From Nitrospira sp. (lineage in GTDB: Bacteria; Nitrospirota; Nitrospiria; Nitrospirales; Nitrospiraceae), in the NCBI GenBank assembly GCA_016873395.1, contig VGXG01000001.1, positions 1-64,000 of the forward strand: a stretch of DNA of 64,000 nucleotides, in the 5' to 3' direction. Of this stretch, positions 41,318-57,088 are shown in pieces. The notes beneath the pieces were generated by a model. That model did not search any database, was not told the DNA's origin, and saw only the letters and a list, made by a program, of their open reading frames with translations. Every line of letters starts with the position of its first letter. The stretch's first letter is position 1. The position numbers were made by a program, and so were the translations under genes.

Positions 41318-41419
41318 TCATCCGTCAATGGTCATTGGTAAGAGAGAAACCTGCTGATCTCCGAATGCCCGATTTGTCTTTCTTCACCATTGACCAATGA
41401 CCGTTGACCATTGACCGGT
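41318..41419. repeat. intergenic hairpin array, TGGTCA/TGACCA family
   Basis: Left arm (41321-41340) and longer right arm (41386-41418, five TTGACC-type units) around a 45-base loop, between the methyltransferase and nuoA. Confidence 0.85.
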
Positions 41420-41426
41420 TTCTTAT

Positions 41427-41798
41427 ATGGGAAACGAAACCGTTCCCCTGAACTACATCCCGATCCTGATCTTCATCGTGATTGCCCTGGGCTTCGGGAT
41501 CGTGTCGCTCCTGGCCGGCTGGGTGGTGCGACCGAGCAAGCCCTATCGGGCCAAGCTGACGCCGTACGAGAGCGGGAGCCCTCTGTTCTCCGACGCGCGT
41601 CTCCAGTTTCCGATGCGGTACTACATCATCGCCATGCTGTTCGTCATCTTCGACATCGAGATCGTGTTCCTGTTCCCCTGGGCGGTGGTCTATCGCAAGC
41701 TGGGGCTGCTCGGGCTGACGGAAATGGGGCTGTTCATCGCCATCCTCCTCGTCGGCTTCTGGTATGCCTGGAAGAAGGGGGCGCTCGAATGGGACTAA
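41427..41798 (+). CDS. nuoA: NADH-quinone oxidoreductase subunit A
   Basis: 123 residues, three membrane helices, with the family signature KLTPYESGSPLFSDARLQFPMRYYIIAMLFVIFDIEIVFLFPWAV. Part of the membrane arm of complex I near the quinone site. First gene of the operon. No convincing ribosome site precedes the ATG, which lies eight bases after a hairpin arm. Confidence 0.96.
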   Translation: MGNETVPLNYIPILIFIVIALGFGIVSLLAGWVVRPSKPYRAKLTPYESGSPLFSDARLQFPMRYYIIAMLFVIFDIEIVFLFPWAVVYRKLGLLGLTEMGLFIAILLVGFWYAWKKGALEWD

Positions 41799-41817
41799 CG
41801 GAGGGGAGCCGATAGCA

Positions 41818-41895
41818 GATGGCATATGGCGTATGGCAAGAAAGAGGGGAAATGAATTCCGCTCCTGCCATCGGCCATAAGCCATCAGCCATATG
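41818..41895. repeat. intergenic hairpin array, ATGGC/GCCAT family (nuoA-nuoB)
   Basis: Left arm 41818-41838, right arm 41866-41895, loop about 27 purine-rich bases. The right arm ends 14 bases before the nuoB ATG with no Shine-Dalgarno. Confidence 0.88.
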
Positions 41896-41909
41896 CTCTT
41901 GAAATTTGC

Positions 41910-42389
41910 ATGGGTTTGTTCGATCGGCAACTGGACGCCAACGTCATCACCACCAACCTCGACTTCCTCGTGGGATGGGCGCGGAAGTCCGCACTCTGGC
42001 CCATGACCTTCGGGTTGGCTTGTTGCGCGATCGAGATGATCGCCACCGTGTCGGCGCGCTACGATCTCGACCGGTTCGGAGCCGGCGTTTTCCGTGCCTC
42101 CCCCCGGCAGGCGGATTTGATGATCGTGGCCGGCACGGTTTGCCGCAAGATGGCACCGGTGATCCGCCGCATCTACGACCAGATGCCGGAGCCGCGCTAC
42201 GTCATCTCAATGGGCTCCTGCGCGACCTCGGGTAACCATTACAACAGTTACAGCGTCGTGCAGGGGGTGGATCAGATCGTCCCGGTGGATGTCTACATCC
42301 CCGGCTGTCCGCCCCGTCCCGAAGCGCTGCTGGACGGCCTGCTCAAGCTGCAAGAGAAGATTCAGCGGGAGAAGGTGTTCGTGAAGTAA
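41910..42389 (+). CDS. nuoB: NADH-quinone oxidoreductase subunit B
   Basis: 159 residues. Holds cluster N2 through Cys38-Cys39 ([10 protein letters not shown]), Cys104 (MGSCATSG) and Cys133 ([10 protein letters not shown]), the terminal FeS cluster that reduces quinone. Peripheral arm subunit contacting NuoD and NuoI. Full length. Start lacks a clear ribosome site. Confidence 0.98.
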
Positions 42390-42390
42390 G

Positions 42391-42476
42391 AGCGTATGGC
42401 GTATGGCCGATGGCTTATGGCAAGAAATCCGGAATCCATCCGAGCCATTCGCTATACGCCATAAGCTATAAGCTCT
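42391..42476. repeat. intergenic hairpin array, ATGGC/GCCAT family (nuoB-nuoCD)
   Basis: Left arm of four TATGGC-type units (42393-42421), right arm of GCCATAAGC-type units (42443-42474), loop 21 bases. Confidence 0.88.
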
Positions 42477-42485
42477 TTGGTAGCT

Positions 42486-44234
42486 ATGCATCCATTGCTT
42501 GAAACGTTGAAGGCCAAATTCCCCGAGGCGGTCCTGTCGGTCCAGGAGGACCGGGAGCGCGCGGAGCTCTCCGTGCGCGTGGCCGCCGACCGCATCCCGG
42601 ACGTCGCCACTTTCCTCCACGACGATCCTGCGGCCGCGTTCGACCACATCACCGACATCTGCTCGGCCGACTATCCGGATGAGGCAGAGCGTTTCGAGGT
42701 GATCTACCATTTTCTCTCTCTCCCGCACGGAACGAGAATCCGGCTCAAGGCCCGAGTGACGGAGGACGATCCGACGATCCCCTCGGTCACCGGCATCTGG
42801 AAGGGGGCCAACTTCCTGGAACGCGAGGTCTACGACCTCATGGGCATCAAGTTCAGCGGCCATCCGGACCTCCGCCGCATCCTGATGCCGGAGGACTATG
42901 ACGAGGGCCACCCGCTGCGGAAAGACTTCCCCACCGAGGGCAAGGGCTGGCGCAGCCGGTTCGAGTTCATCCCGAGGCTGGACGAACCGGCGGCGGAGAC
43001 CGTCGAGGGGGAAATTTCGGAGGAGAAAAAACGCCCTTTCCTGGCCGAGGAGGCTCCGTCGTCGCGCCGCAAGGAAGAGCTGCTCCTGAACATGGGGCCG
43101 CAGCACCCGGCCACTCATGGCGTGCTGCGGGTCGTGCTGGAGCTGGACGGCGAACGGATCGTCAAGGCCACCCCGGATCTCGGCTATCTGCACCGAGGGG
43201 TGGAGAAGCTGGCCGAAGGGCTGGCCTACATGCAGATCATCCCGCACACGGACCGGCTCGACTACGTCTGCTCGATGACGAACAACTACGCGTACGTCCG
43301 GGCCGTCGAAAAACTATTGGGGCTCGCGGTCCCTGAGCGGGCCGAATATATCCGCACCATCGTGGCCGAGATGCAGCGAATCGTCGGGCACCTGTTCTGG
43401 CTGGGAACCCAGGCCTTGGATATCGGCGCCATGACGGTCTTCTTCTGGACCTTCCGTGAGCGGGAGGTGCTGCTGGACCTCTTCGAAAAACTCTGCGGCG
43501 CCAGGCTGACGCTGAACTACTATCGCATCGGGGGCGTGGACAGCGACTTCACGCCCGATCTTGCAGCCCGCCTCAGCGCGTTTCTGAAGACCTTCCCGGC
43601 GCATATCCAGGAGTACGATGCGCTGCTCCAGATCAACCGCATTTGGGTGGGTCGCACGAAAAACGTGGCGGTCATTTCAGCGGAAGACGCCATCAACTTC
43701 GGCCTCACCGGTCCGGTGCTCCGGGCCTCCGGGGTGGCCTACGACGTGCGCAAGTTGGAGCCCTACGGCGCCTACGGCAAGGTCGAGTGGGAAGTGCCGG
43801 TGGGCAAGAACGGCGACACCTATGACCGGTACTGGGTCCGGATGGAGGAAATGCGGCAGAGTTGCCGAATCATCGCGCAGTGCCTGGAACAAATGCCCGA
43901 AGGACCCATCATTGCGGACGCGCCCCAGATCATCCCGCCTCCCAAGGCGCACGTGATGAGGGACATGGAGAGCCTGATCCACCACTTCATCATCTTCACG
44001 CACGGGTTCAAGCCCCCGAAAGGGGAGACCTACTGCGCGAGCGAAGCGCCCAAGGGCGAGCTGGGGTTCTTCATCATCAGCGACGGGAGCCCGCGCCCCT
44101 ACCGGATGAAGATCCGTTCGCCGTCCTTCGTTCACATGGGGGCTTTCGACCACATGGCGCGGGGTTATCTGATCTCCGACATCATCACGATTTTCGGCAC
44201 CTACGACATCGTGATGGGGGAATGTGACCGATAG
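42486..44234 (+). CDS. nuoCD: NADH-quinone oxidoreductase subunits C and D, fused
   Basis: 582 residues. NuoC part 1-170 (VIYHFLSLPHGTRIRLKARVTEDDPTIPSVTGIWKGANFLEREVYDLMGIKFSGHPDLRRIL), a charged linker (about 175-200), then NuoD (LNMGPQHPATHGVLRVVLELDGE...PDLGYLHRGVEKLAEG and the C-terminal DIITIFGTYDIVMGECDR). NuoD lines the quinone cavity with its conserved His/Tyr. Fusion occurs in several phyla. A TTG at 42477 opens the frame earlier; ATG 42486 is preferred. No ribosome site between hairpin and start. Confidence 0.97.
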   Translation: MHPLLETLKAKFPEAVLSVQEDRERAELSVRVAADRIPDVATFLHDDPAAAFDHITDICSADYPDEAERFEVIYHFLSLPHGTRIRLKARVTEDDPTIPSVTGIWKGANFLEREVYDLMGIKFSGHPDLRRILMPEDYDEGHPLRKDFPTEGKGWRSRFEFIPRLDEPAAETVEGEISEEKKRPFLAEEAPSSRRKEELLLNMGPQHPATHGVLRVVLELDGERIVKATPDLGYLHRGVEKLAEGLAYMQIIPHTDRLDYVCSMTNNYAYVRAVEKLLGLAVPERAEYIRTIVAEMQRIVGHLFWLGTQALDIGAMTVFFWTFREREVLLDLFEKLCGARLTLNYYRIGGVDSDFTPDLAARLSAFLKTFPAHIQEYDALLQINRIWVGRTKNVAVISAEDAINFGLTGPVLRASGVAYDVRKLEPYGAYGKVEWEVPVGKNGDTYDRYWVRMEEMRQSCRIIAQCLEQMPEGPIIADAPQIIPPPKAHVMRDMESLIHHFIIFTHGFKPPKGETYCASEAPKGELGFFIISDGSPRPYRMKIRSPSFVHMGAFDHMARGYLISDIITIFGTYDIVMGECDR

Positions 44235-44239
44235 GAAAA

Positions 44240-44320
44240 GAGCATATGGCGTATAGCCTATAGCAAGAAGGGTCCGGCTCGCTCCGACCATAGGCTATAC
44301 GCTATAAGCCATACGCTCTT
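44240..44320. repeat. intergenic hairpin array, ATGGC/GCCAT family (nuoCD-nuoE)
   Basis: Left arm 44241-44264 with degenerate TATGGC/TATAGC units, right arm 44287-44318, loop 22 bases. Confidence 0.85.
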
Positions 44321-44331
44321 CGGCTAAAAAG

Positions 44332-44856
44332 ATGTTGAGAGAAAAGTACAAAGCAGAAATTGATGAGATCCTGAGCCGCTATCCCTTGCGCCGCTCGGCG
44401 CTCCTGCCGCTGCTCTACCTGGCGCAGAAGGAAGAGGGATATGTGACCGAGGCGGCGATGAAAGAGATCGCCTCGATTCTGAAGATCACGCCGCCGCAGG
44501 TATACGAAACTGTCACGTTCTACACGATGTTGAACCTGAGGCCGGTCGGGAAGTTCCATATCCAGGTCTGCAAATCGCTGATGTGCGCGCTGGTCGGGTC
44601 TGACACCCTGCTCGGCTGGCTGGAGGTCAGGCTGGGTATCAAGCCGGGCAACACGACGAAGGACGGGCTGTTCACACTGAGCAAGGTGGAATGTCTGGCC
44701 GCCTGCGGAACCGGCCCGATGATGCAGATCAACGACGACTATTACGAGCGCCTGACCGAAGAGAAAGTGGATCGGATTCTGGCCGACTTGAAGCGCGACG
44801 GCACGAGTTCCTTGAAGAGCGGGCCGTTCATGTGGCCGGAACGGACAGATGGCTAG
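44332..44856 (+). CDS. nuoE: NADH-quinone oxidoreductase subunit E
   Basis: 174 residues with the thioredoxin-like 2Fe-2S domain: Cys80 and Cys85 (QVCKSLMCAL), Cys121 and Cys125 (VECLAACGTGPM), binding cluster N1a. Forms the NADH dehydrogenase module with NuoF and NuoG. The C-terminal tail (KSGPFMWPERTDG) is the region that varies in the family; its last codon touches the next hairpin arm. Confidence 0.97.
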   Translation: MLREKYKAEIDEILSRYPLRRSALLPLLYLAQKEEGYVTEAAMKEIASILKITPPQVYETVTFYTMLNLRPVGKFHIQVCKSLMCALVGSDTLLGWLEVRLGIKPGNTTKDGLFTLSKVECLAACGTGPMMQINDDYYERLTEEKVDRILADLKRDGTSSLKSGPFMWPERTDG

Positions 44857-44926
44857 CGGCGAGTGGCAAGCGGCAAGCGGATCGAACTTTTCCGTACCTC
44901 TCGCCACTAGCCTCTCGCCTCGTGCC
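44851..44926. repeat. intergenic hairpin array, GCGAG/CTCGC family (nuoE-nuoF)
   Basis: Left arm GGCGAGTGGCAAGCGGCAAG (from 44857) pairs with CTCTCGCCACTAGCCTCTCG (from 44898). It begins inside the nuoE stop codon. Same family as 11094-11187 and the tract within nuoG. Confidence 0.82.
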
Positions 44927-44964
44927 AAAAGTTAGCAGCAACCACTCGGACGCATCACCGTGTG

Positions 44965-46287
44965 ATGACCATGGCGAAACCGAAATACGAATTGATCTTA
45001 TTAAAGAACATGCTGCAACCAGGCTACACCGGCTCGCTGGCCGACTACGAGCGGGCGGGCGGCTACCAGGCCTTGCGAAAAATCTTGGGGAAGGTCGCGC
45101 CCGCCGAGGTGACCGCGATGGTCACGAAGTCCGGCCTGCGCGGACGGGGCGGAGCCGGGTTTCCCGCGGGCATCAAGTGGGGCTTTCTCCCCAAAGACTA
45201 TCAGGGTCCCAAATACCTCTGCTGCAACGCCGACGAGAGCGAGCCGGGAACCTTCAAGGACCGTCAGTTGATGGAGCGAGACCCGCATCAAGTGCTGGAG
45301 GGGATCGCGATCGCCTGCTATGCCATCGGCGCCGAGACCGCCTATATCTATATCCGCGGCGAGTTCGTATTGGGCGCCAAAATCCTGGAGAAGGCCATCG
45401 CTGAGGCGCGAGCAGCCGGGTACCTGGGGAAGAACGTGCTTGGCGCCGGTGTCACCATCGACGTCTGGGTACACCGGGGTGCGGGTGCCTACATCTGCGG
45501 CGAGGAGACCGCTCTTTTGGAATCCTTGGAAGGCAAGCGCGGTTTGCCCAGAGTCAAGCCACCCTTTCCGGCCACCGCGGGACTCTACGGGAAACCAACG
45601 GTGATCAACAACGTGGAGACGCTGGCGAACCTGCCCCACATCATCACCCGCGGCCCTGAATGGTTCGCCTCGATCGGATCCCCTCCCAAGAGCACCGGCA
45701 TGCGCATCTTTTGCGTGAGCGGACACGTCAAGCGGCCCGGCAATTATGAAGTCCCCATGGGGATCACGTGTCGCGATCTGATCTTCGAGCACGCGGGGGG
45801 CATGCGGTCGGACAAGCCGTTGAAAGCGATCATTCCCGGCGGGGCCTCCGCCTCCTTCTTTACGCCTGAACACCTGGACGTGAAGTTGGATTTCGAGTCG
45901 GTGGCCCAAGCCGGCTCCATGCTGGGCTCTGGCGGCGTCACGGTCATGGAAGAAGGCACCAGCATGGTCTGGGCTGCGCTGCGGCTGATGGAGTTCTTCC
46001 ATCACGAGTCCTGCGGGAAATGCAGTCCCTGCCGGGAAGGCAGTTCCTGGCTGGTGCAGACCCTCCGGCGCATCGTGAACAAGCGCGGGCGGATGCAGGA
46101 CCTTGAAACGCTGACCGATTTATGCCAGAACATCGCGGGCCGGACGGTCTGCGCCTTCGGCGACGCCGAGGTGGCGCCGATCCTGAGCACCTTGAAGTAC
46201 TGGCGGCATGAGTACGAGGAGCTGATCCGCACGGCGGAAGCCAACGGATCGTCGGAGCTGCTCATGCCGGCCGCTGCACGCCACTAA
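44965..46287 (+). CDS. nuoF: NADH-quinone oxidoreductase subunit F
   Basis: About 440 residues. NADH/FMN site GLRGRGGAGFPAGIKWGF and CNADESEPGTFKDR; 4Fe-4S cluster N3 in SCGKCSPCREGSSW plus the later Cys of LTDLCQNIAG. Accepts hydride from NADH and passes electrons into the FeS chain. Start is ambiguous (GTG 44962, ATG 44965, ATG 44971); none has a ribosome site. Confidence 0.97.
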   Translation: MTMAKPKYELILLKNMLQPGYTGSLADYERAGGYQALRKILGKVAPAEVTAMVTKSGLRGRGGAGFPAGIKWGFLPKDYQGPKYLCCNADESEPGTFKDRQLMERDPHQVLEGIAIACYAIGAETAYIYIRGEFVLGAKILEKAIAEARAAGYLGKNVLGAGVTIDVWVHRGAGAYICGEETALLESLEGKRGLPRVKPPFPATAGLYGKPTVINNVETLANLPHIITRGPEWFASIGSPPKSTGMRIFCVSGHVKRPGNYEVPMGITCRDLIFEHAGGMRSDKPLKAIIPGGASASFFTPEHLDVKLDFESVAQAGSMLGSGGVTVMEEGTSMVWAALRLMEFFHHESCGKCSPCREGSSWLVQTLRRIVNKRGRMQDLETLTDLCQNIAGRTVCAFGDAEVAPILSTLKYWRHEYEELIRTAEANGSSELLMPAAARH

Positions 46288-46289
46288 AG

Positions 46290-46372
46290 AAGCTGACAAG
46301 TGGCAAGGAACCAAGCTGACAAGAATGAAAGCTGCCAGGGTGACATCCGAAACTTGCAAACTTGTCAGCCGG
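46290..46372. repeat. intergenic hairpin array, CTGACAAG/CTTGTCAG family (nuoF-nuoG)
   Basis: Left arm with two AGCTGACAAG copies (46291-46323) and a right arm AACTTGCAAACTTGTCAG (46351-46368). This unit is unlike the other junctions though the layout is the same. Confidence 0.75.
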
Positions 46373-46400
46373 TCTGAGGAATATAGAGGATACATAGGCT

Positions 46401-49082
46401 GTGGCAAACGTTATGGTTGAGACAGTCAAACTGACCATCGACGGGCACCACATCACGGTCCCGAAGGGCACCCTCGTGATCGAGGCGGCGCGCCAGGTGG
46501 GCGTGATGGTCCCCCACTTCTGCTACCACCCCAAGCTCAAGCCGGACGCCAACTGCCGCATGTGTCTGGTGGAGATCGAGAAGATGCCGAAGCTCCAGAC
46601 CGCCTGCAGCACGCCGGCGGCGGAGGGAATGGTCGTGCGCACCGCCACCACGGTCGTCAACGAGGCCCACAAGTCGGTGCTGGAGTTCATCCTGGCCAAC
46701 CATCCGCTGGACTGTCCGGTCTGCGACCAGGGCGGCCGCTGCGACCTGCAGGATTTCTCGCACGAGTACACGCCCACCACCAGTCGGTTCATCGAGGTCA
46801 AGCGGGTCTTCCCGAAGGAGTATTTCAGCCCGCTGATCGAGACCCAGATGAACCGCTGCGTGCAGTGCCTGCGCTGCGTGCGTTACTGCGACGAGGTGAT
46901 GGATGTCAAGGCGCTCGCACCCTCCGGCCGCGGGACCATGACCGAGATCAAGCACTTCACCCACCACGAGCTCGACTGCGAGTTCTGCGGAGGGTGCGTG
47001 CAGATCTGCCCGGTCGGCGCCATCACCAGCCGCCTGTCCATGTATGAGTTCCGCCCCTGGATGCTCAAGCGGGCCGACACGGTCTGCACCTACTGCGGCG
47101 ACGGCTGCCAGATCACGATCCAGACCAAGGAGAACCAGCTCATCGAGGTCATGTCCGCCCAGGGCGCAGGCCGCAACAACGGGGATCTCTGCGCGCGGGG
47201 CTTCTTCGGCTACCACGTCAGCACGCACCCGGACCGTCTCCAGCATCCACTGATCCGACGCAACGGTGAATTGGTCCAGGCCACGTGGGAAGACGCGCTG
47301 GAGTGGGTCGCGGAGACGGCCATCCGTCTGAAGCTCGCGCATGGTCCGAACGCCTTCGGCGGGCTGATCGGCGCCCGCTGCACGAACGAGGACCTGTACC
47401 TGTTCCAAAAGTTCATGCGACTGGTCGTCGGCACCAACAATATCGACAGCAGCGCTCGCTACGGTCAGATCAACGGAGTCCGGGCGCTCCGCCGCGTCCA
47501 GGGCACCTCTCGCTGGACGGTAACGTTCGATGACATCGTATCGGCGGAGGCGCTCCTGCTCGTCGGCACCAACGTTACCGAGACCAACCCGATCACCGGC
47601 CTGAAGGTCAAGGAGGCGGTCAAGAAGCGGCAGGCGACGCTCTTAACGATTGAGGCGCTGGAGCCGGCCGTCGGTACGATCAGCAACATCGCCAACCTGG
47701 CCGCGCATCATTTTTCCGTCCAGCCGGACGGGTTCAAGCCGGCCGTCCTGGGCCTGATCAAGGCCGTCGTGGAAGAAAACTTGGTGAGCCAGCCCCTCGC
47801 GCAGAAAGCCCCCGGCTATGTCCAGGCGGTCAGCGAGGCGGTGCGACGTCTCTCCTGGCAGGCGATCGAGCGCGCAACCGGGTCCTCTTCGCAGTCGTTC
47901 ATTGACGCGACCCGCTCGTTCACACGCACGGCCCGCGCCGTGATCCTCGTCGGGCAAGGCGTGCTGCGGGCACCGGACGGATCTGGCCTCACCGCGACGC
48001 TCCTGGACCTGCTGCTGCTGACCGGCCACCACGGCCTGCCCGGCTGCGGCGTGGCTCCCTTGGCCGAAGAGAACAACGATCAGGGCGCCGTGGAAATGGG
48101 CGCGGCTCTGGAGTACCTCCCAGGACCGAGCGACGCCAACGACCAGGCCGCCAGGGCGCGGCTCGCGCAAGCCTGGAAGGAAGAACTGCCGAAGGGACCG
48201 GGCAAGAGCCTCATGGAGATGATCGAGGGGGCCCGAACCGGTTCCCTCAAGGCCATGTTTATCGTCGGCGAGAACCCGGCCGGCTCCCTCCCCCCTTCAG
48301 CCGGAACCATGGAGGCTCTGCAGAGCCTGGACCTGCTGGTCTGCCAGGAACTGTTTCTTACTGAAACGGCCCGGCTCGCGCATGTGGTGCTGCCGGCCTG
48401 TTCCTACGCGGAGAAGGACGGCACCTTCACCAACACCGAAGGGCACGTACAGTCAGTCCGGCATGCCATCGAGCTGATCGGCGAGAGCCGGCCTGACTGG
48501 GAGATCCTCTCGGCCCTGTCGGTTCTGATGGGCTATCCCCTCGAATACGGGGACGCGAAAGAAATTTTCAAGGAGATCAGAAGCCTGATCCCCGGTTACG
48601 GACTCCTGGGCCCTGCGCCGACGCCCCCGCGCCCGGACCAGGCCGTGGTGGAGAGTTATCTCAAGACCGGCTATAGTAGCGGCCTGGCTGAACGATATAC
48701 GCTGGGCGAGCGGCGAGCGGCGAGCGGCGAGCGGAAAGACTTCAGCCTGACGCTGCTGGTTACGCAGACCCTGTTCCATTCCGGCAAGTTTTCCACCCGC
48801 GCCAAGGGGTTGCTGCAGGTCCAGGCCGAGGGGGCGTTCTCACTAAATCCTGCGGATGGAACCAGGCTGGGTCTTGCGGAGGGCGACCGAGTCCGAGTGT
48901 CCAACGACCTCGGCGAGATGACCACGACCGTCAAGCTGCAGGATCGCGTGCCGGTTGGGTTGGCCCTGTTCCCGGAGCATTTCGACCAGGAGGCGCGTCG
49001 GCTGCTGCGCGTCTCGACGGACCCGGCAACGCAGGTACCGTATTACAAGTCCGCGTCGGTGAAGGTGGAAAAGGCAAAGTGA
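46401..49082 (+). CDS. nuoG: NADH-quinone oxidoreductase subunit G
   Basis: 893 residues from GTG 46401. Ferredoxin-type 2Fe-2S domain (CYHPKLKPDANCRMC, ACSTP), 4Fe-4S sites (MNRCVQCLRCVRYC, CEFCGGCVQICPVGA), and the molybdopterin-type domain with its own CTYCGDGC cluster and a later GDLCARG, as in subunits keeping cluster N7. A tract of four perfect 7-base GGCGAGC repeats (48705-48732) encodes GERRAASGER around residue 770, in a variable surface region. It matches the unit of nearby hairpin arrays. Confidence 0.96.
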   Translation: MANVMVETVKLTIDGHHITVPKGTLVIEAARQVGVMVPHFCYHPKLKPDANCRMCLVEIEKMPKLQTACSTPAAEGMVVRTATTVVNEAHKSVLEFILANHPLDCPVCDQGGRCDLQDFSHEYTPTTSRFIEVKRVFPKEYFSPLIETQMNRCVQCLRCVRYCDEVMDVKALAPSGRGTMTEIKHFTHHELDCEFCGGCVQICPVGAITSRLSMYEFRPWMLKRADTVCTYCGDGCQITIQTKENQLIEVMSAQGAGRNNGDLCARGFFGYHVSTHPDRLQHPLIRRNGELVQATWEDALEWVAETAIRLKLAHGPNAFGGLIGARCTNEDLYLFQKFMRLVVGTNNIDSSARYGQINGVRALRRVQGTSRWTVTFDDIVSAEALLLVGTNVTETNPITGLKVKEAVKKRQATLLTIEALEPAVGTISNIANLAAHHFSVQPDGFKPAVLGLIKAVVEENLVSQPLAQKAPGYVQAVSEAVRRLSWQAIERATGSSSQSFIDATRSFTRTARAVILVGQGVLRAPDGSGLTATLLDLLLLTGHHGLPGCGVAPLAEENNDQGAVEMGAALEYLPGPSDANDQAARARLAQAWKEELPKGPGKSLMEMIEGARTGSLKAMFIVGENPAGSLPPSAGTMEALQSLDLLVCQELFLTETARLAHVVLPACSYAEKDGTFTNTEGHVQSVRHAIELIGESRPDWEILSALSVLMGYPLEYGDAKEIFKEIRSLIPGYGLLGPAPTPPRPDQAVVESYLKTGYSSGLAERYTLGERRAASGERKDFSLTLLVTQTLFHSGKFSTRAKGLLQVQAEGAFSLNPADGTRLGLAEGDRVRVSNDLGEMTTTVKLQDRVPVGLALFPEHFDQEARRLLRVSTDPATQVPYYKSASVKVEKAK
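48705..48732 (+). repeat. tandem GGCGAGC x4 inside nuoG
   Basis: Four perfect copies of a 7-base unit, in frame only because the tract is 28 bases plus flank. The unit is that of the intergenic GCGAG family; no partner arm is nearby. Confidence 0.85.
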
Positions 49083-49164
49083 TGAGCGATGAGTGCAGAG
49101 TGATGAATGTCGGAACACCTCCTGCAGCTTTTCACTCAGCACTCATCATTCATCACTCATCACT
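49081..49164. repeat. intergenic hairpin array, GATGAG/CTCATC family (nuoG-nuoH)
   Basis: Left arm of GATGAGTG-like units (49081-49108), right arm of ACTCATCATTC units (49132-49164), loop about 23 bases. Unlike most junctions, a GAGGAG site follows before the nuoH ATG. Confidence 0.85.
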
Positions 49165-50237: not shown

Positions 50238-50243
50238 GCAAAG

Positions 50244-50316
50244 AAGTTGACAGTTATCGGTTGACAGTTTGGAGAAAAGAAAACTGATTACTGCAAACTG
50301 AGAACTGAAAACTCAG
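50244..50316. repeat. intergenic hairpin array, GACAGTT/AACTGA family (nuoH-nuoI)
   Basis: Left arm of TTGACAGTT units (50247-50270), right arm of AAACTGA units (50281-50316) ending directly at the nuoI start codon. Confidence 0.8.
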
Positions 50317-50862
50317 ATGATGAAGACCTTCAACGCGTGGCTCAAGACCATCATCTTCTATGAGATCCTGATCGGGATGAAGGCGACGCTTGGGCACCTG
50401 CTGCGCTACAAGCCGATTACGTTGCAGTATCCGCATGAGAAGCGGACTCTGCCGGACAGCTACCGGGGCATGCTGGCGCTGCTCCGCTACGACGACGGCA
50501 CGGAGAAGTGCGTGGGCTGCGACCTCTGCGAAGCGGCCTGTCCCTCCCGGGTCATCAAGGTCATCAGCGCGGAGGTACCCGGCGAGCCGACTAAGCGCTA
50601 CTCCAAGGAATACTATATGGACATGACCCGCTGCCTGTTCTGCGGGCTGTGCGTCGACGCCTGCCCGGTGGACGCGCTGGGCATGACCCGCGAGTACGAG
50701 TGGGCTGTCTACGACAAGCGCCAACTGCGCTTGAACAAGCAGCAGCTCCTGGCCATCGGAGACCGCTCGTTCCCGGTCCGGGAGAAGCGGCTGGAGCTGC
50801 AACACCCCAACGTCGCCTTCTTCAACGTCGCGTTCCGGCAGATGCCCCCCAAGGAGGGCTAG
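50317..50862 (+). CDS. nuoI: NADH-quinone oxidoreductase subunit I
   Basis: 181 residues. Two ferredoxin-type 4Fe-4S motifs, CVGCDLCEAACPS and CLFCGLCVDACPV (clusters N6a and N6b), after an N-terminal amphipathic region that anchors it to the membrane arm. Tandem ATG at 50317 abuts the hairpin with no ribosome site. Only six bases separate its stop from nuoJ. Confidence 0.98.
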   Translation: MMKTFNAWLKTIIFYEILIGMKATLGHLLRYKPITLQYPHEKRTLPDSYRGMLALLRYDDGTEKCVGCDLCEAACPSRVIKVISAEVPGEPTKRYSKEYYMDMTRCLFCGLCVDACPVDALGMTREYEWAVYDKRQLRLNKQQLLAIGDRSFPVREKRLELQHPNVAFFNVAFRQMPPKEG

Positions 50863-50868
50863 CGCGAC

Positions 50869-51408
50869 GTGGCCATCCTGTTCTTCTTCTACTTTGCCGG
50901 CGTCATCGTCCTCACCTCGATCCTGGTGGTGACGCTGCGCAATCCCATCTACAGCGTCCTCTCCCTGCTGATCATGTTCTTCCATGTGGCGGGACTCTAC
51001 GTCACGCTGGAGGCTGAATTTCTGGCCGCCGTCCAGATCATCGTCTACGCCGGCGCCATCCTGGTGCTGTACCTGTTCGTCGTCATGCTGCTGAACGTCA
51101 AGCGCGAGGAGCGCTACCATTCTCAGTTCCCGCTGGCGGCTCTTCTGGGCATCACCATCCTGACGGAGGTGCTGATGCTGGCCTTCCTCCGTGGCTTCTC
51201 TTCGGAAGCGCCAGCGGTCGCCCCTGCGGTGGGCGACTCAGCGCAGCCCGGGGAAGCCATTGCAGGGACAGGAAATACCGAGACGATCGGCGAGGCCCTG
51301 TACTCGACGTACCTGTTTCCCTTCGAGGTCGCCTCGTTGATCCTGCTGGTGGCCATGATCGGAGCGATCGTCCTAGCCAAAAAGAAAGTGGGGGAAGGCG
51401 AGGCGTGA
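50869..51408 (+). CDS. nuoJ: NADH-quinone oxidoreductase subunit J
   Basis: 179 residues from GTG 50869, five membrane helices; conserved EAEFLAAVQIIVYAGAILVLYLFVVMLLN includes the pi-bulge helix of the membrane arm. A polar loop (about 115-145) of low complexity precedes the last helix. The nuoI-nuoJ junction is the only intergenic one in the operon without a hairpin array. Confidence 0.96.
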   Translation: MAILFFFYFAGVIVLTSILVVTLRNPIYSVLSLLIMFFHVAGLYVTLEAEFLAAVQIIVYAGAILVLYLFVVMLLNVKREERYHSQFPLAALLGITILTEVLMLAFLRGFSSEAPAVAPAVGDSAQPGEAIAGTGNTETIGEALYSTYLFPFEVASLILLVAMIGAIVLAKKKVGEGEA

Positions 51409-51489
51409 TTCGTCATCCGCATAGAAAGCGTCATCCGTTATCCGTCATTCGTTATTCGCGAGTGACGAATTACGAATAACGAGTAACGA
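51408..51489. repeat. intergenic hairpin array, ATTCG/CGAAT family (nuoJ-nuoK)
   Basis: Left arm of TCATCCGT/TCATTCG units (51428-51458) and right arm of CGAATTACGAATAAC units (51459-51489), nearly loopless. The nuoK ATG is formed by the last CGAATG unit. Confidence 0.88.
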
Positions 51490-51795
51490 ATGGCGATTCC
51501 TCTTTCATACTACGTCACCCTGAGCGCGATCGTGTTCATCACCGGCCTGGTGGGGGTGCTGATCCGCCGCAACATCATCATCATCCTGCTGTCCGTGGAG
51601 CTGATGCTGAACGCGACCAACATCAACTTCGTGGCGTTCTCTCACCACCTGCACAACGTCGCCGGCCAGGTCTTCGTCTTTTTCGCGCTGACCGTGGCCG
51701 CCGCCGAAGTCGCCGTCGGGCTGGCCATCATCATCGCCTTGTACCGGAGTAAATTCAGCATCAACGTGGACGAGTTCCAGTTGCTGAAATGGTGA
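51490..51795 (+). CDS. nuoK: NADH-quinone oxidoreductase subunit K
   Basis: 101 residues, three membrane helices with the two conserved glutamates ([14 protein letters not shown] and [17 protein letters not shown]) of the proton path. Full length for the family. Its start codon lies within a repeat unit and has no ribosome site. Confidence 0.98.
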
Positions 51796-51798
51796 AAA

Positions 51799-51879
51799 GC
51801 GTCATTCGTCAACCGTCACTCGTTATTCGTGAAAGAGAGGATAGCTCTTTTTTGCGAATGACGAATAGCGAATAACGAT
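51799..51879. repeat. intergenic hairpin array, ATTCG/CGAAT family (nuoK-nuoL)
   Basis: Left arm 51799-51830, right arm 51854-51879, loop about 23 bases. Ends three bases before the nuoL ATG. Confidence 0.88.
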
Positions 51880-51882
51880 TCT

Positions 51883-53784
51883 ATGTTGTACATCCTCATC
51901 CCATTATTGCCCTTCGCCGCCTTCCTGATCCTCGGCCTCTTCGGCCACTGGATCAAGGACCGGGCGCACCTCGTCGCCGTGCCCGCCGTAGGGGCATCCT
52001 TCCTGTTCTCCCTGTTCGTCTTCGCGGAGGTCGCCGGAGGCCGAAACGTCACCATTCCCCTCTACACCTGGTTGACCTCCGGGGATCTCCGCATCGAACT
52101 GAGCTTGTACTTCGACCGACTCACCGTCGTGATGCTGCTCCTCGTCACGACCGTCAGCGGACTCGTGCATGTCTATACGATCGGTTACATGCACGGAGAA
52201 AAAGGCTACGCCCGGTTTTTCGCCTACATCGCGCTGTTCACCTTTTCCATGCTCATGCTGGTCACAGCGGACAACTTCCTCCAGTTGTTCGTGTTCTGGG
52301 AGGCGGTCGGCCTCTGCTCCTACCTCTTGATCGGCCATTGGTACGAACGCAAATCGGCTTGCGACGCGGCCACCAAGGCCTTCGTGGTCAACCGCGTGGG
52401 CGACTTCGGGTTCCTCTTGGGCTTGCTGCTGGTGCTCTACAGCTTTGGGTCGCTGGAATACCGGCACGTGTTCGCGCAAGCGGCCGACCTCACCAACGAC
52501 ACGATCAATCTGCTAAAGCCGTTCGGGGGCGAGTGGGAGGTATCGACACTGACCCTGATCTGCCTGCTCCTGTTCGTGGGCGCAGTAGGAAAGTCCGCGC
52601 AGGTTCCGCTGCATGTCTGGTTGCCGGACGCGATGGAGGGCCCGACGCCGATCTCGGCTCTGATCCACGCGGCCACGATGGTGACTGCGGGGGTCTTCAT
52701 GGTGGCCAGGCTGGCGCCGCTCTACAATCTGTCTCCCACCGCCATGGACGTGGTGGCGGTCACCGGCGCCCTGACGATGGTCCTGGGAGCGACCATCGCC
52801 CTGACCCAGACCGATATCAAGCGCGTCGTGGCCTATTCGACGGTCAGCCAGCTCGGCTATATGGTCATGGCCTGCGGCCTGGGCGTCTACACAGCCGGGA
52901 TCTATCACCTGCTCACCCACGGAGCCTTCAAAGCCCTGCTGTTCCTGGGATGCGGCTCGGTCATCATCGCCCTGCACCATGAGCAGGACATGCGCCACAT
53001 GGGCGGCCTCAAGGGCACGCTGCCGATCACCTACTGGACTTTCGTGATCGGCTCTCTGGCCCTGGCCGGGTTCCCTCTGACGGCGGGGTTTTTCAGCAAG
53101 GATGAAATTCTGATCGGAGCCTGGTCGGCGGGAGACCTCGGCAAGGTCTTGGCTGTGGCCGGTCTCCTGACGGCCCTGCTGACGGCGTTTTACAGTTTTC
53201 GTCTGGTCTTCGTCACATTCTGGGGAGAGTCACGTGTTGACCGGCACCATGCCGGTCACGTGCACGAACCTTCCAAGACCATGACCGTGCCTCTGCTGAT
53301 CCTGGCTGTGCTTGCCGTCGTGACCGGCTACCTGGGCATTCCGGAATTCATCGCGCCGGTTCTGCCGAGTCCCGCCGGTGCCGAAGCGCATCATGGAGGA
53401 TCAGCCGCCCACGGCATCATGACAGTCGCAACCCTCTTGGGGCTGGGAGGCATCGCCGCCGCCTACCACATCTATGTCAAATCACCCGGCCTCCCGGACC
53501 GGCTGGCCCAACGTTGGCAGCAGGTCTACCGCCTCTCCCTCAACAAGTGGTATGTGGACGAGGCCTATGACGCCACGCTGGTCCGCCCGACCGTCCGGCT
53601 GGCCGATCGTCTCTGGAAGTCGGTGGACGTGGCGGTCATCGATGCGGCCGTGAACGGGGTGGCGCGGGGCATCGGCTGGTGCGGGTGGATTCTGCGGCTC
53701 TTGCAGAGCGGACAGACGCAGCACTATGCGTTGGGCATGGCGCTGGGCGCGGTGCTGATTCTGAGCGCGTATCTATTGTTTTGA
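51883..53784 (+). CDS. nuoL: NADH-quinone oxidoreductase subunit L
   Basis: 633 residues, antiporter-like subunit with about 15 helices and the long lateral helix at the C-terminus. Signatures FWEAVGLCSYLLIGHWYER, VGKSAQVPLHVWLPDAMEGPTPISALIHAATMVTAGVFMVAR and TDIKRVVAYSTVSQLGYM carry the proton-path Glu/Lys/His. Distal proton pump of complex I. No ribosome site. Confidence 0.98.
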   Translation: MLYILIPLLPFAAFLILGLFGHWIKDRAHLVAVPAVGASFLFSLFVFAEVAGGRNVTIPLYTWLTSGDLRIELSLYFDRLTVVMLLLVTTVSGLVHVYTIGYMHGEKGYARFFAYIALFTFSMLMLVTADNFLQLFVFWEAVGLCSYLLIGHWYERKSACDAATKAFVVNRVGDFGFLLGLLLVLYSFGSLEYRHVFAQAADLTNDTINLLKPFGGEWEVSTLTLICLLLFVGAVGKSAQVPLHVWLPDAMEGPTPISALIHAATMVTAGVFMVARLAPLYNLSPTAMDVVAVTGALTMVLGATIALTQTDIKRVVAYSTVSQLGYMVMACGLGVYTAGIYHLLTHGAFKALLFLGCGSVIIALHHEQDMRHMGGLKGTLPITYWTFVIGSLALAGFPLTAGFFSKDEILIGAWSAGDLGKVLAVAGLLTALLTAFYSFRLVFVTFWGESRVDRHHAGHVHEPSKTMTVPLLILAVLAVVTGYLGIPEFIAPVLPSPAGAEAHHGGSAAHGIMTVATLLGLGGIAAAYHIYVKSPGLPDRLAQRWQQVYRLSLNKWYVDEAYDATLVRPTVRLADRLWKSVDVAVIDAAVNGVARGIGWCGWILRLLQSGQTQHYALGMALGAVLILSAYLLF

Positions 53785-53869
53785 AAAGAGCGTATGGCAT
53801 ATGGCTTATAGTTCGGACCGATCGGAACCTTTCCTGCCATCAGCCATTAGCCATACGCCATTAGCTCTG
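53785..53869. repeat. intergenic hairpin array, ATGGC/GCCAT family (nuoL-nuoM)
   Basis: Left arm 53789-53810, right arm 53835-53867, loop 24 bases which itself contains a CGGACCG/CGATCGG pairing. Confidence 0.88.
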
Positions 53870-53880
53870 GTTCTTGAGCG

Positions 53881-55494
53881 ATGAGCGACTTGACCATCCA
53901 GAGCAACGGGTTCCCCTGGCTGACCGCCATCGTCTTTCTCCCGCTGGCCGGCACAGTCTTGTTGTTCTTCCTCAAGGACGCGGCCGTCCGCTGGGTCGCG
54001 CTGGGGGTGGCGCTGGCCGATTTCGCCCTCTCCTTGCCCCTGTGGATCCTCTTCGACCCCTCGACGCCCCGCATGCAATTTGCCGAACAGGCGGCCTGGA
54101 TCGTCTCCCCGCCCATCAACTACAGCGTCGGCGTGGACGGCATCAGCCTGCCGCTGATTCTGTTGACGACCTTCCTCACGCCCCTCTGCGTGCTCGTGTC
54201 CTGGACCGCCATCCAGACCCGCGTCAAGGGATTCATGGCCTGCCTGCTGGTCATGGAAACCGCCATGCTGGGCGTCTTCGTGGCGCTGGACTTCGTCCTG
54301 TTCTACGTGTTCTGGGAAGCCATGCTGATCCCGATGTACCTGCTGATCGGGGTCTGGGGCGGGCCCAACCGGGTTTATGCGGCGGTGAAATTTTTCCTCT
54401 ACACCCTGACCGGCAGCGTCCTGTTCCTGGTCGCCATCCTGGTGTTATTTTTCCAGGGCGGCCAGACCTTCGACATCCTCTTGCTGAGTCGAGTGGAATA
54501 CTCCTCCACGCTCCAGTTCTGGCTCTTCCTGGCTTTCTTCGCCGCCTTCGCTGTAAAGGTGCCCATGTTCCCCTTCCACACCTGGCTCCCGGATGCCCAT
54601 GTGGAAGCGCCGACGGCGGGCAGCGTGATCCTGGCCAGCGTGCTGCTCAAGATGGGCGCCTATGGCTTTCTTCGCTTCGCACTCCCCATGCTGCCGGATG
54701 CCGCCGCCGCCTTCACGCCGATGATGGTCGCCCTCTCGCTGACCGCCATCCTGTACGGCGCCTACATGGCCCTGGCCCAGGCGGACCTCAAAAAACTGAT
54801 CGCCTACTCCAGCGTCAGCCACATGGGGTTCGTGACCCTCGGCATCTTCGCACTGAACGCCCAGGGGATCGAGGGCGCCATGATGCAAATGATCAACCAC
54901 GGCATTACCACAGGAGCCCTGTTCCTCTGCGTCGGGATCATTTACGAGCGGACGCACAGCCGCATGATCGCCGACAACGGCGGGCTGGCCAAGCCCATGC
55001 CTCGTTACGCGACGTTCCTCGTGATCTTCGCGCTCTCGTCGCTGGGGCTGCCCGGCACGAACAGCTTCGTGGGAGAGTTTTTGGTTCTGGTCGGCACCTT
55101 CCTCTGGAGCAAACCGGCGACGGCGATCGCCGCGCTCGGCATCATTCTGGCCGCCGTGTACCTGCTGTGGATGGTGCAGCGCGTGGTCTTCGAGCTGCCG
55201 ACGGGCCGGACTGCCCCCACACTGGTTGACCTCAACCTGCGCGAGTTCGTCACGTTGGCTCCGTTGGTCGTCCTCGTGTTCTGGATCGGCTTCTTCCCGA
55301 ACCCGGTGCTGACGCCCATGCACGCCAGCGTCAACCATCTGATCGAGGAGCTGGACGAAGCCGACCAAGTCATCGCTGAACACGGAACCGGACTGCCCGA
55401 CATGGCGACACGGCGAAGGGGTGACGCGGCGATTTCCCCGTGTCTCCGCGTCTCCGCGTCGCCATGCTTCGTTCACTTATCGTTGAAACCATGA
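53881..55494 (+). CDS. nuoM: NADH-quinone oxidoreductase subunit M with repeat-encoded tail
   Basis: 537 residues. Antiporter-like subunit: FYVFWEAMLIPMYLLIGVWGG, AVKVPMFPFHTWLPDAHVEAPTAGSVILASVLLKMGAYGF, ADLKKLIAYSSVSHMGFV. The normal protein would end near HLIEELDEADQVIAEHG. From residue 508 the frame runs through a hairpin array (55402-55465), adding about 30 residues (MATRRRGDAA... HLSLKP) unlike any NuoM tail. The stop overlaps the nuoN ATG (ATGA). Confidence 0.97.
   Translation: MSDLTIQSNGFPWLTAIVFLPLAGTVLLFFLKDAAVRWVALGVALADFALSLPLWILFDPSTPRMQFAEQAAWIVSPPINYSVGVDGISLPLILLTTFLTPLCVLVSWTAIQTRVKGFMACLLVMETAMLGVFVALDFVLFYVFWEAMLIPMYLLIGVWGGPNRVYAAVKFFLYTLTGSVLFLVAILVLFFQGGQTFDILLLSRVEYSSTLQFWLFLAFFAAFAVKVPMFPFHTWLPDAHVEAPTAGSVILASVLLKMGAYGFLRFALPMLPDAAAAFTPMMVALSLTAILYGAYMALAQADLKKLIAYSSVSHMGFVTLGIFALNAQGIEGAMMQMINHGITTGALFLCVGIIYERTHSRMIADNGGLAKPMPRYATFLVIFALSSLGLPGTNSFVGEFLVLVGTFLWSKPATAIAALGIILAAVYLLWMVQRVVFELPTGRTAPTLVDLNLREFVTLAPLVVLVFWIGFFPNPVLTPMHASVNHLIEELDEADQVIAEHGTGLPDMATRRRGDAAISPCLRVSASPCFVHLSLKP
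55402..55465. repeat. hairpin array, GGCGAC/GTCGCC family, inside nuoM 3' end
   Basis: ATGGCGACACGGCGA... (left, 55402-55432) pairs with ...TCTCCGCGTCGCCAT (right, 55436-55465), almost loopless. It lies within the nuoM reading frame. Confidence 0.85.
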
Positions 55495-56972
55495 CCCTTC
55501 CGCTGGCCGACATCCTGGCTATCCTGCCCGAGCTGATCGTGGTCGCGGCCGCTTGCCTCGTGCTGGGGCTGGACCCGATTACCCCCGCGCCGCGCAAGCA
55601 ATGGCTGGCTTGGCTGAGCGTCGCGTCCTTGCTCCTCTGTTTCGGCCTCACCTCCCTGCAATTGGACGAGCGGGTGATGGCGTTCAGCGACCTGGTCATC
55701 ATCGACCCCTACGCCTGCTTCTGGAAGCTCCTCCTCTACGCGGTCACCGTTCTGACGATCCTCATGTCGCTCGCGTACCTGAAGGAAGAGAAGATTCATT
55801 TGGCCGAGTACTACGGCTTTCTGCTGCTGGCCCTCTCCGGCATGATGATCATGGTCTCCGCGGCCGATCTGCTCACGATCTATTTAGGCACTGAGCTGAT
55901 GTCCTTGTCCCTGTACGTCCTGGCCGGCTTCAAACGCGCCGAGGGTCGCTCGCTCGAAGCCGCTGCCAAGTATTTCGTGCTGGGGGCCTTCTCGTCCGGC
56001 ATCCTGCTCTACGGCATCTCCCTGCTGTACGGCCTGGCCGGCAGCACCCGCCTCTCCGCCATCGCCATGTCGGTCGCCACTCGCAGGCTGGATGATCCGG
56101 CCCTCCTGCTGGCGATGATCCTCCTCGTGGTCGGGTTCGGCTTCAAGATCGCCGTGGTGCCGTTCCACATGTGGACGCCGGACGTTTACGAAGGCTCTCC
56201 CACCTCCGTCACGGCCTTCATGGCGGTCGCCTCCAAGGCGGCCAGCTTCGGCGCGTTCATGCGGGTTTTTTTGGAAGGGCTGGGCGGGCTCAAGGCCAAC
56301 TGGCACGTCCTGCTCCTGGTGGTCTGCGTCGCCACGTTGGTCCTGGGCAACGTCGTGGCCATCGTCCAGACCAACATCAAGCGGATGCTCGCCTATTCCA
56401 GCATCGCCCATGCCGGCTATGCGTTGATCGGGATGGTGGTGGCGGGACAGGCGGGGGCGGAGGGGGCGGTCCGGTCGCTGGGCCTGGCGAGCGTCATGCT
56501 GTACTTGGCGGTCTATGCCTTCATGACGCTGGGTGCCTTCACGGTGGTGGCCATGCTCCGAAAGGGCGGCCTGGAAGGAGACGAGATCGAGGACTTCACG
56601 GGGCTCTCCAAGCGGCAGCCGGTGGCGGCGTTTCTGATGCTGGTCTTCATGGTCTCCCTGGCCGGAATTCCCCCGACCGCCGGGTTCATCGGCAAGTTCT
56701 ATCTCTTCATGGCCGCCGTCCAAGCCGGGTTGGCCTGGCTGGCCGTGGTGGCCCTGCTGTTCGCCGCCGTGTCCGCTTACTATTACCTGCGGGTGGTGAT
56801 GGTCATGTACATGCGCGAGCCGCAAGCCTCGGCCCGGCTCGAGCCTCGCCTCGCCGCCTCGCCGGTCACGGCCGTCGTCCTCGCCTGCGCCGTAGCCGGC
56901 GTGATCCTCCTGGGCCTCTATCCAGGCCCTCTGGTGGCCCTCACCAACCAGGCGGTGCTGGCCCTGAAGTAG
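55491..56972 (+). CDS. nuoN: NADH-quinone oxidoreductase subunit N
   Basis: 493 residues from ATG 55491, which begins with the family's MTLPLADILAILPELIV. Antiporter-like: YLGTELMSLSLYVLAGFKR, GFKIAVVPFHMWTPDVYEGSPTSVTAFMAVASKAASF, TNIKRMLAYSSIAHAGYALIG. Last gene of the operon. In-frame starts upstream lie in the repeat that forms the nuoM tail. Confidence 0.98.
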   Translation: MTLPLADILAILPELIVVAAACLVLGLDPITPAPRKQWLAWLSVASLLLCFGLTSLQLDERVMAFSDLVIIDPYACFWKLLLYAVTVLTILMSLAYLKEEKIHLAEYYGFLLLALSGMMIMVSAADLLTIYLGTELMSLSLYVLAGFKRAEGRSLEAAAKYFVLGAFSSGILLYGISLLYGLAGSTRLSAIAMSVATRRLDDPALLLAMILLVVGFGFKIAVVPFHMWTPDVYEGSPTSVTAFMAVASKAASFGAFMRVFLEGLGGLKANWHVLLLVVCVATLVLGNVVAIVQTNIKRMLAYSSIAHAGYALIGMVVAGQAGAEGAVRSLGLASVMLYLAVYAFMTLGAFTVVAMLRKGGLEGDEIEDFTGLSKRQPVAAFLMLVFMVSLAGIPPTAGFIGKFYLFMAAVQAGLAWLAVVALLFAAVSAYYYLRVVMVMYMREPQASARLEPRLAASPVTAVVLACAVAGVILLGLYPGPLVALTNQAVLALK

Positions 56973-56982
56973 CCGCAGAGTG

Positions 56983-57088
56983 GCTGGTCAATGGTCACTG
57001 GCCAATAGTCAATCGTGGAAGAGTCTCATGCGACTGCCGTTCTTGGCCTCACCATCGACCCATGACTATTGACCGTTGACTATTGCCT
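56983..57088. repeat. intergenic hairpin array, TGGTCA/TGACCA family (nuoN-yihY)
   Basis: Left arm 56983-57014, right arm 57049-57087, loop about 34 bases. Ends at the start codon of the next gene. Confidence 0.85.

Follow-up and report, generated by a model that had tools for sequence, protein, structure and literature searches.

Intergenic inverted arrays of several heptad word families in an uncultured Nitrospira relative

Dispersed intergenic palindromes of the REP/BIME, ERIC/IRU and MITE types occupy operon spacers in bacteria, and an excess of 7-nt repeats between bacterial genes has repeatedly been noted without explanation. The closest described systems are arrays of short words. Xanthomonas campestris and X. 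axonopodis carry GGGAATC or (GGGANTN)n arrays, with 70-75 inverted pairs per genome, mostly of four units (Rehm et al. 2015, PMC4692102), and Geobacter metallireducens contains paired "global regulator binding sites" of classes 1-3, for which binding was proposed (PMC2700814). TAACTGA heptamer repeats are known from Beggiatoaceae, Cyanobacteria and Bacteroidetes (PMC4679880). In the parS sites of plasmid pSM19035, contiguous 7-bp sites (WATCACW) are each bound by one ribbon-helix-helix (RHH) dimer, and four or more sites are needed (PMC9499535). Here we describe elements of comparable layout in the window, that is, the whole stretch of 64,000 nucleotides analysed, which comes from an uncultured Nitrospira relative. 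Our best reading, to which we give a probability of roughly one half, is that they are dispersed inverted arrays of predicted protein-binding sites.

Architecture and distribution of the arrays

The intergenic element consists of two inverted arrays, each with 3-5 copies of a word of about 5 nt, separated by a loop of about 0-60 nt. The repeat unit comprises about five fixed nucleotides and two free positions (for example NNATRGC, NNTCAGT, GGTCANN and NGGCNAG), and in several families the phase logos resolve five conserved and two near-random phases per unit. About ten word families coexist within this one genome; the words found include ATRGC, TCAGT, GGTCA, GATGA and CGTNAT, among which there is no G-tract word fit for quadruplexes. 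Copies of the ATRGC family also share conserved termini, GAGC...GCTC(TT). The period is nearly always 7 nt, and 8 nt in a few families. In the window and in 400 kb of the same genome, the tandem-period spectrum has its maximum at 7 (and 14), a minority falling at 8 and few at other periods; 58 of 78 period-7 arrays lie inside hairpins. The first-pass annotation, made from the letters of the window, had given a unit length of 7-9 nt, which stands as a dominant 7 and a minority 8 but not as a random spread; a true period-9 family is present in relatives.

The same annotation had reported a long hairpin at almost every junction of the nuo operon, which encodes respiratory complex I. Between the methyltransferase and the gene that follows nuoN there are 14 junctions, and 13 of them bear this out, the exception being nuoI-nuoJ (6 bp). 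Folded against dinucleotide shuffles, the junctions gave minimum free energy z-scores of -1.9 to -5.3, relative to a baseline of random 100-mers from the window with mean -0.37 and sd 1.11; the lowest folding scores belong to nuoE-nuoF (-1.9), nuoN-next gene (-2.0), nuoM-nuoN (-2.4) and nuoF-nuoG (-2.5). Most of these hairpins do lie in spacers, but the one between nuoM and nuoN is inside the nuoM ORF, which is extended by it (55401-55466) and overlaps nuoN. The annotation had also noted further occurrences elsewhere in the window, and such hairpins number about 20 in all. The elements are listed below by position, with no strand assigned unless one is given.

7062..7187, plus strand: dispersed leader with a TCAGT inverted array (7104-7171), ending in TTGGTATGGAG just before an ATG; the hairpin part is matched 41 times across the genome
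9822..9892: inverted array, AAAGTC family, period 8
11101..11175: inverted array, NGGCNAG family
39052..39127: inverted array, CGTNATN family
41302..41423: methyltransferase-nuoA inverted array, GGTCA family (TGGTCAN / NTGACCA), period 7; z -4.2
41804..41900: nuoA-nuoB inverted array, ATRGC family, ends GAGC...GCTCTT; z -4.9
42391..42467: nuoB-nuoCD inverted array, ATRGC family; z -4.3
44238..44320: nuoCD-nuoE inverted array, ATRGC family, matched in part at about 40 other places in the genome; z -5.3
44850..44927: nuoE-nuoF inverted array, NGGCNAG family, beginning in the end of nuoE and overlapping its stop; z -1.9
46290..46370 (ends approximate): nuoF-nuoG degenerate, gapped inverted array, CTGACAAG (period about 8); z -2.5
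48705..48734, plus strand: direct array (GGCGAGC)x4.3 internal to nuoG, with no hairpin partner, in a hypervariable linker
49078..49157: nuoG-nuoH inverted array, GATGA family (the family also found at this junction in G007), overlapping the nuoG stop; z -4.0
50252..50313: nuoH-nuoI inverted array, TCAGT family (also found at this junction in G019); z -3.1
51423..51501: nuoJ-nuoK inverted array, CGTNATN family, its right arm containing the nuoK start; z -2.7
51806..51878: nuoK-nuoL inverted array, CGTNATN family; z -5.0
53787..53868: nuoL-nuoM inverted array, ATRGC family; z -3.7
55401..55466: inverted array of period 8 (ACACGGCG) in the nuoM C-terminal region before nuoN, within the ORF; z -2.4
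56985..57089: nuoN-next gene inverted array, GGTCA family; z -2.0
57921..58029: inverted array, GGTCA family
59200..59287: inverted array, GGTCA family
61176..61264: inverted array, ATRGC family
62098..62175: inverted array, GGTCA family

The elements extend throughout the genome. A 400-kb sample held 84 periodic hairpins, compared with 2 in Markov-3 random sequence, which gives a density of about 2 per 10 kb and, by extrapolation, about 490 per genome; these genome statistics derive from 464 kb plus targeted stretches, 4 of the 20 sample stretches being from contigs known beforehand to bear arrays. The ATP-synthase and ribosomal operons contain arrays as well, and about one third of gaps of at least 60 bp carry one irrespective of gene orientation, whether co-directional, convergent or divergent. 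The median distance from the stop codon to the array is 6 nt and from the array's end to the next start 18 nt; 2 of 101 are inside genes. The ATRGC pattern was counted 148 times in this genome and TCAGT 198 times (reversed-pattern controls gave essentially 0), the corresponding ranges across 40 relatives being 0 to 124 and 0 to 19; a scan of other phyla returned two clear loci only (L097 and L132).

A role in setting nuo subunit stoichiometry, as first proposed, does not agree with this distribution, as arrays occur genome-wide, in all gene orientations and next to unrelated genes, and the number of nuo junctions occupied varies among species from none to 11. An assembly artefact is excluded because orthologous junctions in many other assemblies hold the same kind of element. 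We saw no promoter logic at the arrays, and Rfam gave no match in the window at gathering score and no credible match for the leader copies. Shine-Dalgarno matches of at least 4 were found for 43% of array-adjacent genes and 55% of others (random 26%), a weak difference with approximate start calls, and a replacement of Shine-Dalgarno sites by arrays was rejected.

Constraint on the repeated word and turnover of whole elements

Orthologous copies permit a direct test of which positions are constrained, and for one pair of species this showed constraint on the word letters and neutral drift in the linkers. In seven arrays of one family (ATRGC) common to the congeners G004 and G023, the phase-specific change rates were.033 for A,.033 for T,.044 for G and.044 for C, compared with.311 for R,.263 for the linker,.258 for the loop and.268 at fourfold sites. 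A fully automatic version of this comparison counted changes at 22/184 word letters against 35/100 linker and R positions (p=9e-6), and in five nuo-region orthologues the arms differed by 9.9% and the loop by 37.5% (p=1e-9). The contrast weakens to.193 vs.276 (p=.008) when entire arms are compared automatically, unit indels and misaligned ends included. In the AAGTC family, core change was.024 and linker change likewise low, at.070. Paralogous TCAGT copies differed pairwise by.046 in the paired core,.186 in the 2x2 internal loops and.18-.29 in the flanks (permutation p=.00025).

Across 32 species, junctions are bimodal, being either nearly empty or occupied by about one element of 80-110 bp, and the same junction carries different word families in different species, so that the impression of one architecture built from exchangeable units holds among the relatives compared. 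Between G004 and G023, some 26 arrays divide into 14 retained, 6 opposite an empty site and about 6 replaced, by a manual sorting in which period-9 cases in coding sequence, among 19 "retained" ones, were discarded as false positives due to codon periodicity. Swaps and empty sites are seen between congeners whose flanking proteins are up to 99% identical. These comparisons show that gain, loss and replacement affect whole elements, within the short non-coding stretch that separates neighbouring genes.

Such unit-by-unit turnover would also be expected of selfish palindromes of the REP or MITE kind, copied in trans by a putative enzyme that recognises the word and having no host function. The amplification and dispersal specific to the genome, the conserved termini of the ATRGC copies and the occurrence between unrelated genes all suit this explanation, which we nevertheless regard as somewhat unlikely. 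Inert copies should decay evenly, whereas retained copies keep their word letters and lose their linkers, and the congener copies compared did not include a clear half-decayed class. Target-site duplication was not apparent by eye at the empty sites. The obvious REP enzyme, the Y1 transposase (PF01797, Y1_Tnp), has one match in this genome and none in the array-rich G004, G023 and G019, a misfit in distribution for which we rejected a RAYT/Y1 transposase as the mover.

A function of the transcript, whose stem would stabilise, process or insulate mRNA segments with the fold under selection, appears less probable still. The folding z-scores, the consensus stem conserved in 29 TCAGT copies, the position adjoining the stop codon and ending shortly before the start, and the transcription of the Xanthomonas relatives (PMC4692102) speak for it. 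However, selection on hairpin pairing as such, one of the possibilities initially raised, is not supported by the sequence comparisons. Linker bases pair at the null level (0.478 vs 0.461+-0.012, register-aware null), and in-register pairing of the arms at free positions was dropped as an explanation, there being no excess once the null includes the choice of register. The R/Y position of the stem drifts neutrally, G-U mismatches on the mRNA strand are not favoured over A-C (78 vs 97 and 69 vs 85; p=.17 and.23), and compensatory double changes were found in 0/24 stem pairs of the TCAGT copies. Arrays occupy divergent gaps too, and intrinsic terminators are not in excess in the nuo region, with 11 terminator-like sites against 10.4+-3.6 in shuffles. 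Since the word letters evolve slowly, linkers, R and loop change at the fourfold rate and no RNA-strand bias is seen, the recognisable constraint is the repeated word rather than pairing as such.

A purely mutational origin, with polymerase slippage in 7-nt steps and hairpin-templated copying making and homogenising the arrays in the absence of selection, is very improbable. In its favour, bacterial repeats in general show an excess of period 7, and a polymerase footprint of 7 nt has been put forward (cited in PMC4679880, PMC4692102). Yet at the free positions adjacent units resemble each other no more than units drawn at random from their family (.358 vs.367,.241 vs.341,.340 vs.448), the two arms do not copy one another at linkers and the word letters of orthologous copies change much more slowly, which contradicts slippage and the hairpin-templated expansion suggested earlier unless mutation itself were word-specific.

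Predicted DNA recognition

Constrained words with drifting linkers, as seen in the one species pair, point to recognition of sequence rather than to slippage of the polymerase or folding of RNA. If the elements are arrays of protein-binding sites, the words would serve sequence-specific, strand-symmetric recognition of DNA, where strand symmetry means the absence of bias (p=.17 and.23) together with the presence in all gap orientations. Each array may be read cooperatively, one protein unit per repeat, like the ribbon-helix-helix protein omega (ParB of pSM19035) on 7-bp repeats, and the DNA in between could be bridged or capped by the two arrays. Hairpin folding of the transcript would then follow from having one site clustered twice in inverted orientation. 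We propose that any family fits a given junction because the junction need only tolerate the insertion, and that coding sequence, by leaving only the gap from stop codon to start region open to insertions, makes position and size look constant.

What counts against recognition is that about ten families would need many proteins, or one word-lax reader, per genome. Genes with an RHH_1 domain (PF01402) number 6 here, 3 in G004, 1 in G023 and 5 in G012; these counts do not track the arrays, G012 being without ATRGC triplets despite its five genes. The families swapped at the same junction among close species provide natural replacements with which the needs of a gene boundary can be probed.

Comparison with known repeat systems

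The REP/BIME, ERIC/IRU and MITE palindromes differ from the present elements in having a single conserved sequence per family without a 7-nt repeat, and the array-rich relatives lack a RAYT-type Y1 transposase. The geometry of parS of pSM19035 (omega/ParB) fits, with contiguous 7-bp sites, five fixed positions, W at the ends and cooperative reading, but it has 7-10 units at six plasmid sites and its word, WATCACW, is not among the families here. The cyanobacterial STRR-type heptanucleotide repeats share the period of 7 and some unit types, such as GGCGAGN on a Gloeocapsa plasmid, but are mostly direct, near-perfect arrays; in 50 kb of a Halotia plasmid we found 18 period-7 arrays and only 4 periodic hairpins. 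The TAACTGA repeats likewise have a 7-nt unit, close to the TCAGT family (reverse complement ACTGA), and are intergenic, just upstream of starts, but they consist of one unit in direct repeats, with 169 direct sets against one indirect (PMC4679880).

The Geobacter sites are nearer. In them, units of 7-9 nt are repeated 3-5 times in tandem on opposite strands around a variable loop, several classes occur per genome, and the proBA spacer holds one class in one species and a different element in the next. Inverted pairs of 3-5 tandem repeats in several classes per genome are also what we find here, but the Geobacter sites number 8-24 pairs per class and their consensus sequences (GTTGCTYN, TCTCCGTS, MTYCTGA) are absent from the families here. 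In the Xanthomonas (GGGANTN)n arrays, five positions of the 7-nt unit are conserved and two are free; these arrays lie between genes and nearer the upstream one, and mostly occupy the same gene pairs in two species, with varying sequence and length. The arrays here show this unit layout with few units per array, lie in intergenic DNA by the upstream gene end and include many inverted pairs; they differ in that the Xanthomonas arrays form one G-rich family, discussed as G-quadruplexes, whereas here there are many families, mostly not G-rich and mostly paired.

The arrays tie together scattered reports across unrelated phyla. A bolder generalisation, which we find doubtful, is that inverted heptad arrays form a general intergenic class (Nitrospira, Xanthomonas, Geobacter, Beggiatoaceae and cyanobacteria, with single loci in Methylomirabilota and Gallionella) in which interchangeable words would share one gene-boundary role, each read by a putative DNA-binding protein that steps along the repeats and bridges or caps the borders of transcription units; site identity would then turn over while the arrangement stays. 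Because direct relatives have been described in Xanthomonas and Geobacter, the present arrays are a multi-family form of a known, unexplained kind, and what is new within that kind of heptad array is the presence of many word families in one genome.

Periodic hairpins in the window and across nuo operons

The window opens contig 1 of an assembly of 2.34 Mb in 97 contigs from the Nitrospira family, and a NuoH query was 88% identical to Candidatus Nitrospira defluvii. The first-pass annotation had described hairpins at nearly every nuo junction, and these proved both real and striking: all junctions of the run but nuoI-nuoJ carry one, and in the shuffled-control folding that it had called for, energies lay 1.9 to 5.3 SD under dinucleotide shuffles, compared with -0.37 for random 100-mers. 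A detector of inverted repeats with periodic arms, controlled on Markov-3 random sequence, returned 20 elements from the window and 84 from a further 400 kb of sampled sequence, against 2 from the random control. The period was 7 in 70 of these 84 and 8 in 11, and tandem-period spectra showed 7 and 14 almost alone.

The comparison was extended to 350 nuo junctions from 32 species, where spacer lengths were bimodal (<30 nt in 116, 60-140 nt in 181). No periodic hairpin was found in the 116 short spacers, and 56% of those of 60-140 nt carried one (random 150-mers, 3.5%), with period 7 in 85, period 8 in 12 and period 9 in 3. Array-bearing junctions ranged from none to 11 per species, and the word family at a given junction differs from species to species, which bears out the earlier suggestion of a constant architecture with swapped families. 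Heptad arrays are missing from nuoI-nuoJ in almost all 32 species; its spacers are either a few nt long or 80-200 nt of other sequence. The nuo spacers of two relatives, G017 and G018 (loci L041, L043), contain a second type of hairpin element with GCGCGCAGT/GCGCACTC motifs.

Repeat anatomy and constraint on the word

Each repeat consists of a word plus free letters. In the phase logos of several families, five phases stood at roughly 0.85-1.0 and two were near random, the exceptions among the five being R, the A/G position of ATRGC, and the initial G of GGTCA. The units so defined are NNATRGC, NNTCAGT, GGTCANN, NGGCNAG and GTNAGGN; the logos of CGTNATN and NGATGAN were less clean. Within the stem, the word pairs at 0.82-0.89 and the free letters at 0.35-0.72 depending on the family, the latter showing no excess over chance when the null includes register choice. 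The hairpin thus consists of one word clustered twice in opposite orientation, and its arms are not copies of each other. Free letters of neighbouring units also show no likeness, and the arrays therefore did not arise by recent duplication; these two observations together disfavour the hairpin-templated growth proposed earlier.

Substitutions were compared between two congeners, G004 and G023. Across seven retained ATRGC arrays, the A, T, G and C positions differ by 3-4%, R by 31%, and free letters and loop by 26% each; the nuo genes diverge by 27% at fourfold sites and by 5% at codon positions 1+2. When the arrays were aligned automatically, with no manual trimming, 22/184 word letters differed versus 35/100 among free letters and R combined (p=9e-6), a fraction that did not depart from that of fourfold sites (p=.08), and a cruder whole-arm count, unit indels included, gave.193 versus.276 (p=.008). 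In five nuo-region orthologues, loops differed by 37.5% versus 9.9% for arms (p=1e-9). The consensus stem of 29 paralogous TCAGT copies has a recurring pattern of five pairs followed by a 2x2 internal loop; these internal loops are four times more variable than the paired core, and no stem pair showed a compensatory double change among the 29 copies. Arm mismatches on the mRNA strand were similarly divided between G-U and A-C (78:97 in this genome, 69:85 at nuo junctions). The constraint on word letters, the lack of G-U bias and the lack of compensatory changes speak for recognition of the repeated word at the DNA level rather than for a conserved RNA fold, with the deepest support coming from one family in one species pair.

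Placement, turnover and dispersal

A simple gene caller applied to 464 kb placed 66 arrays in co-directional gaps, 12 in convergent gaps, 12 in divergent gaps and 2 inside genes, with 9 at stretch edges left out of the orientation classes. About a third of gaps >=60 bp bear an array in every orientation class, and in co-directional gaps the array starts a median of 6 nt past the stop and ends a median of 18 nt ahead of the next start. Arrays also occur in ATP-synthase and ribosomal-protein/rpoB regions; there is nothing in them particular to complex I, and the RNA control of nuo subunit stoichiometry once envisaged is accordingly not favoured. A (GGCGAGC)x4 array lies in frame within nuoG (48705-48734), in a linker hypervariable across relatives.

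After removal of codon-periodic false hits, hand-sorting of all fetched orthologous flanks between G004 and G023 gave about 14 retained arrays, 6 opposite an empty site and about 6 replaced. At nuoB-nuoCD, one congener has an ATRGC array and the other a GTGAAAN array, despite 99% and 92% identity of the proteins on either side. This genome contains 148 ATRGC triplets, G004 124 and G023 41; some family members and all other sampled families of the order have none. TCAGT triplets number 198 here and <=19 in any relative, with reversed-pattern controls essentially zero for both. These uneven counts indicate that families amplify in particular lineages.

A TCAGT array forms part of a dispersed leader, about 126-150 nt long (window copy, 7062-7187; others, loci L159-L188), laid out as TGGAGGCAAAGTAACTATCCGCTCACAG, the TCAGT hairpin and GCTTGGTATGGAGG, followed after 4-9 nt by a start codon in most copies. 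This genome holds 41 matches to the hairpin part and 22 to the longer element, some copies being tandem. The downstream genes are unrelated and, judged by eye on translations, include those for FtsH-, FtsL-, ZapA-, BioB-, DegP- and PstS-like proteins. The leader as a whole was not found in 40 relatives and matches no Rfam family.

Likeness to known heptad arrays

The arrays are best read as dispersed inverted arrays of putative binding sites, turning over at gene boundaries. Inverted layouts of other periods occur in relatives (L045, L049, L086, L266, L289), namely one family with a genuine 9-nt period (GTTTATCTG / CAGATAAAC) and another with a period of 8 (GATTTGGT / ACCAAATC); period-7 inverted arrays of other families are also present on one contig each from Methylomirabilota and Gallionella (L097, L132). 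Among described systems, TAACTGA repeats (PMC4679880) and cyanobacterial heptamers are mostly direct, unlike the Nitrospira arrays. In Geobacter metallireducens, repeats of 7-9 nt form paired arrays on opposite strands; these fall into several classes and have been put forward as sites for a regulator, and the corresponding spacer of the sister species is filled by another element (PMC2700814). The Nitrospira arrays resemble them in pairing, in strand arrangement, in comprising several classes and in differing spacer content. A mechanical precedent for how a protein might read such words is omega/ParB of pSM19035, of which one RHH dimer binds each 7-bp site and four contiguous sites are required (PMC9499535). 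By their geometry the Nitrospira arrays belong to the heptad-array kind, sharing with the (GGGANTN)n arrays of Xanthomonas the 5+2 heptad, the unit number (about four), the inverted pairing and the position adjoining the upstream gene (PMC4692102).
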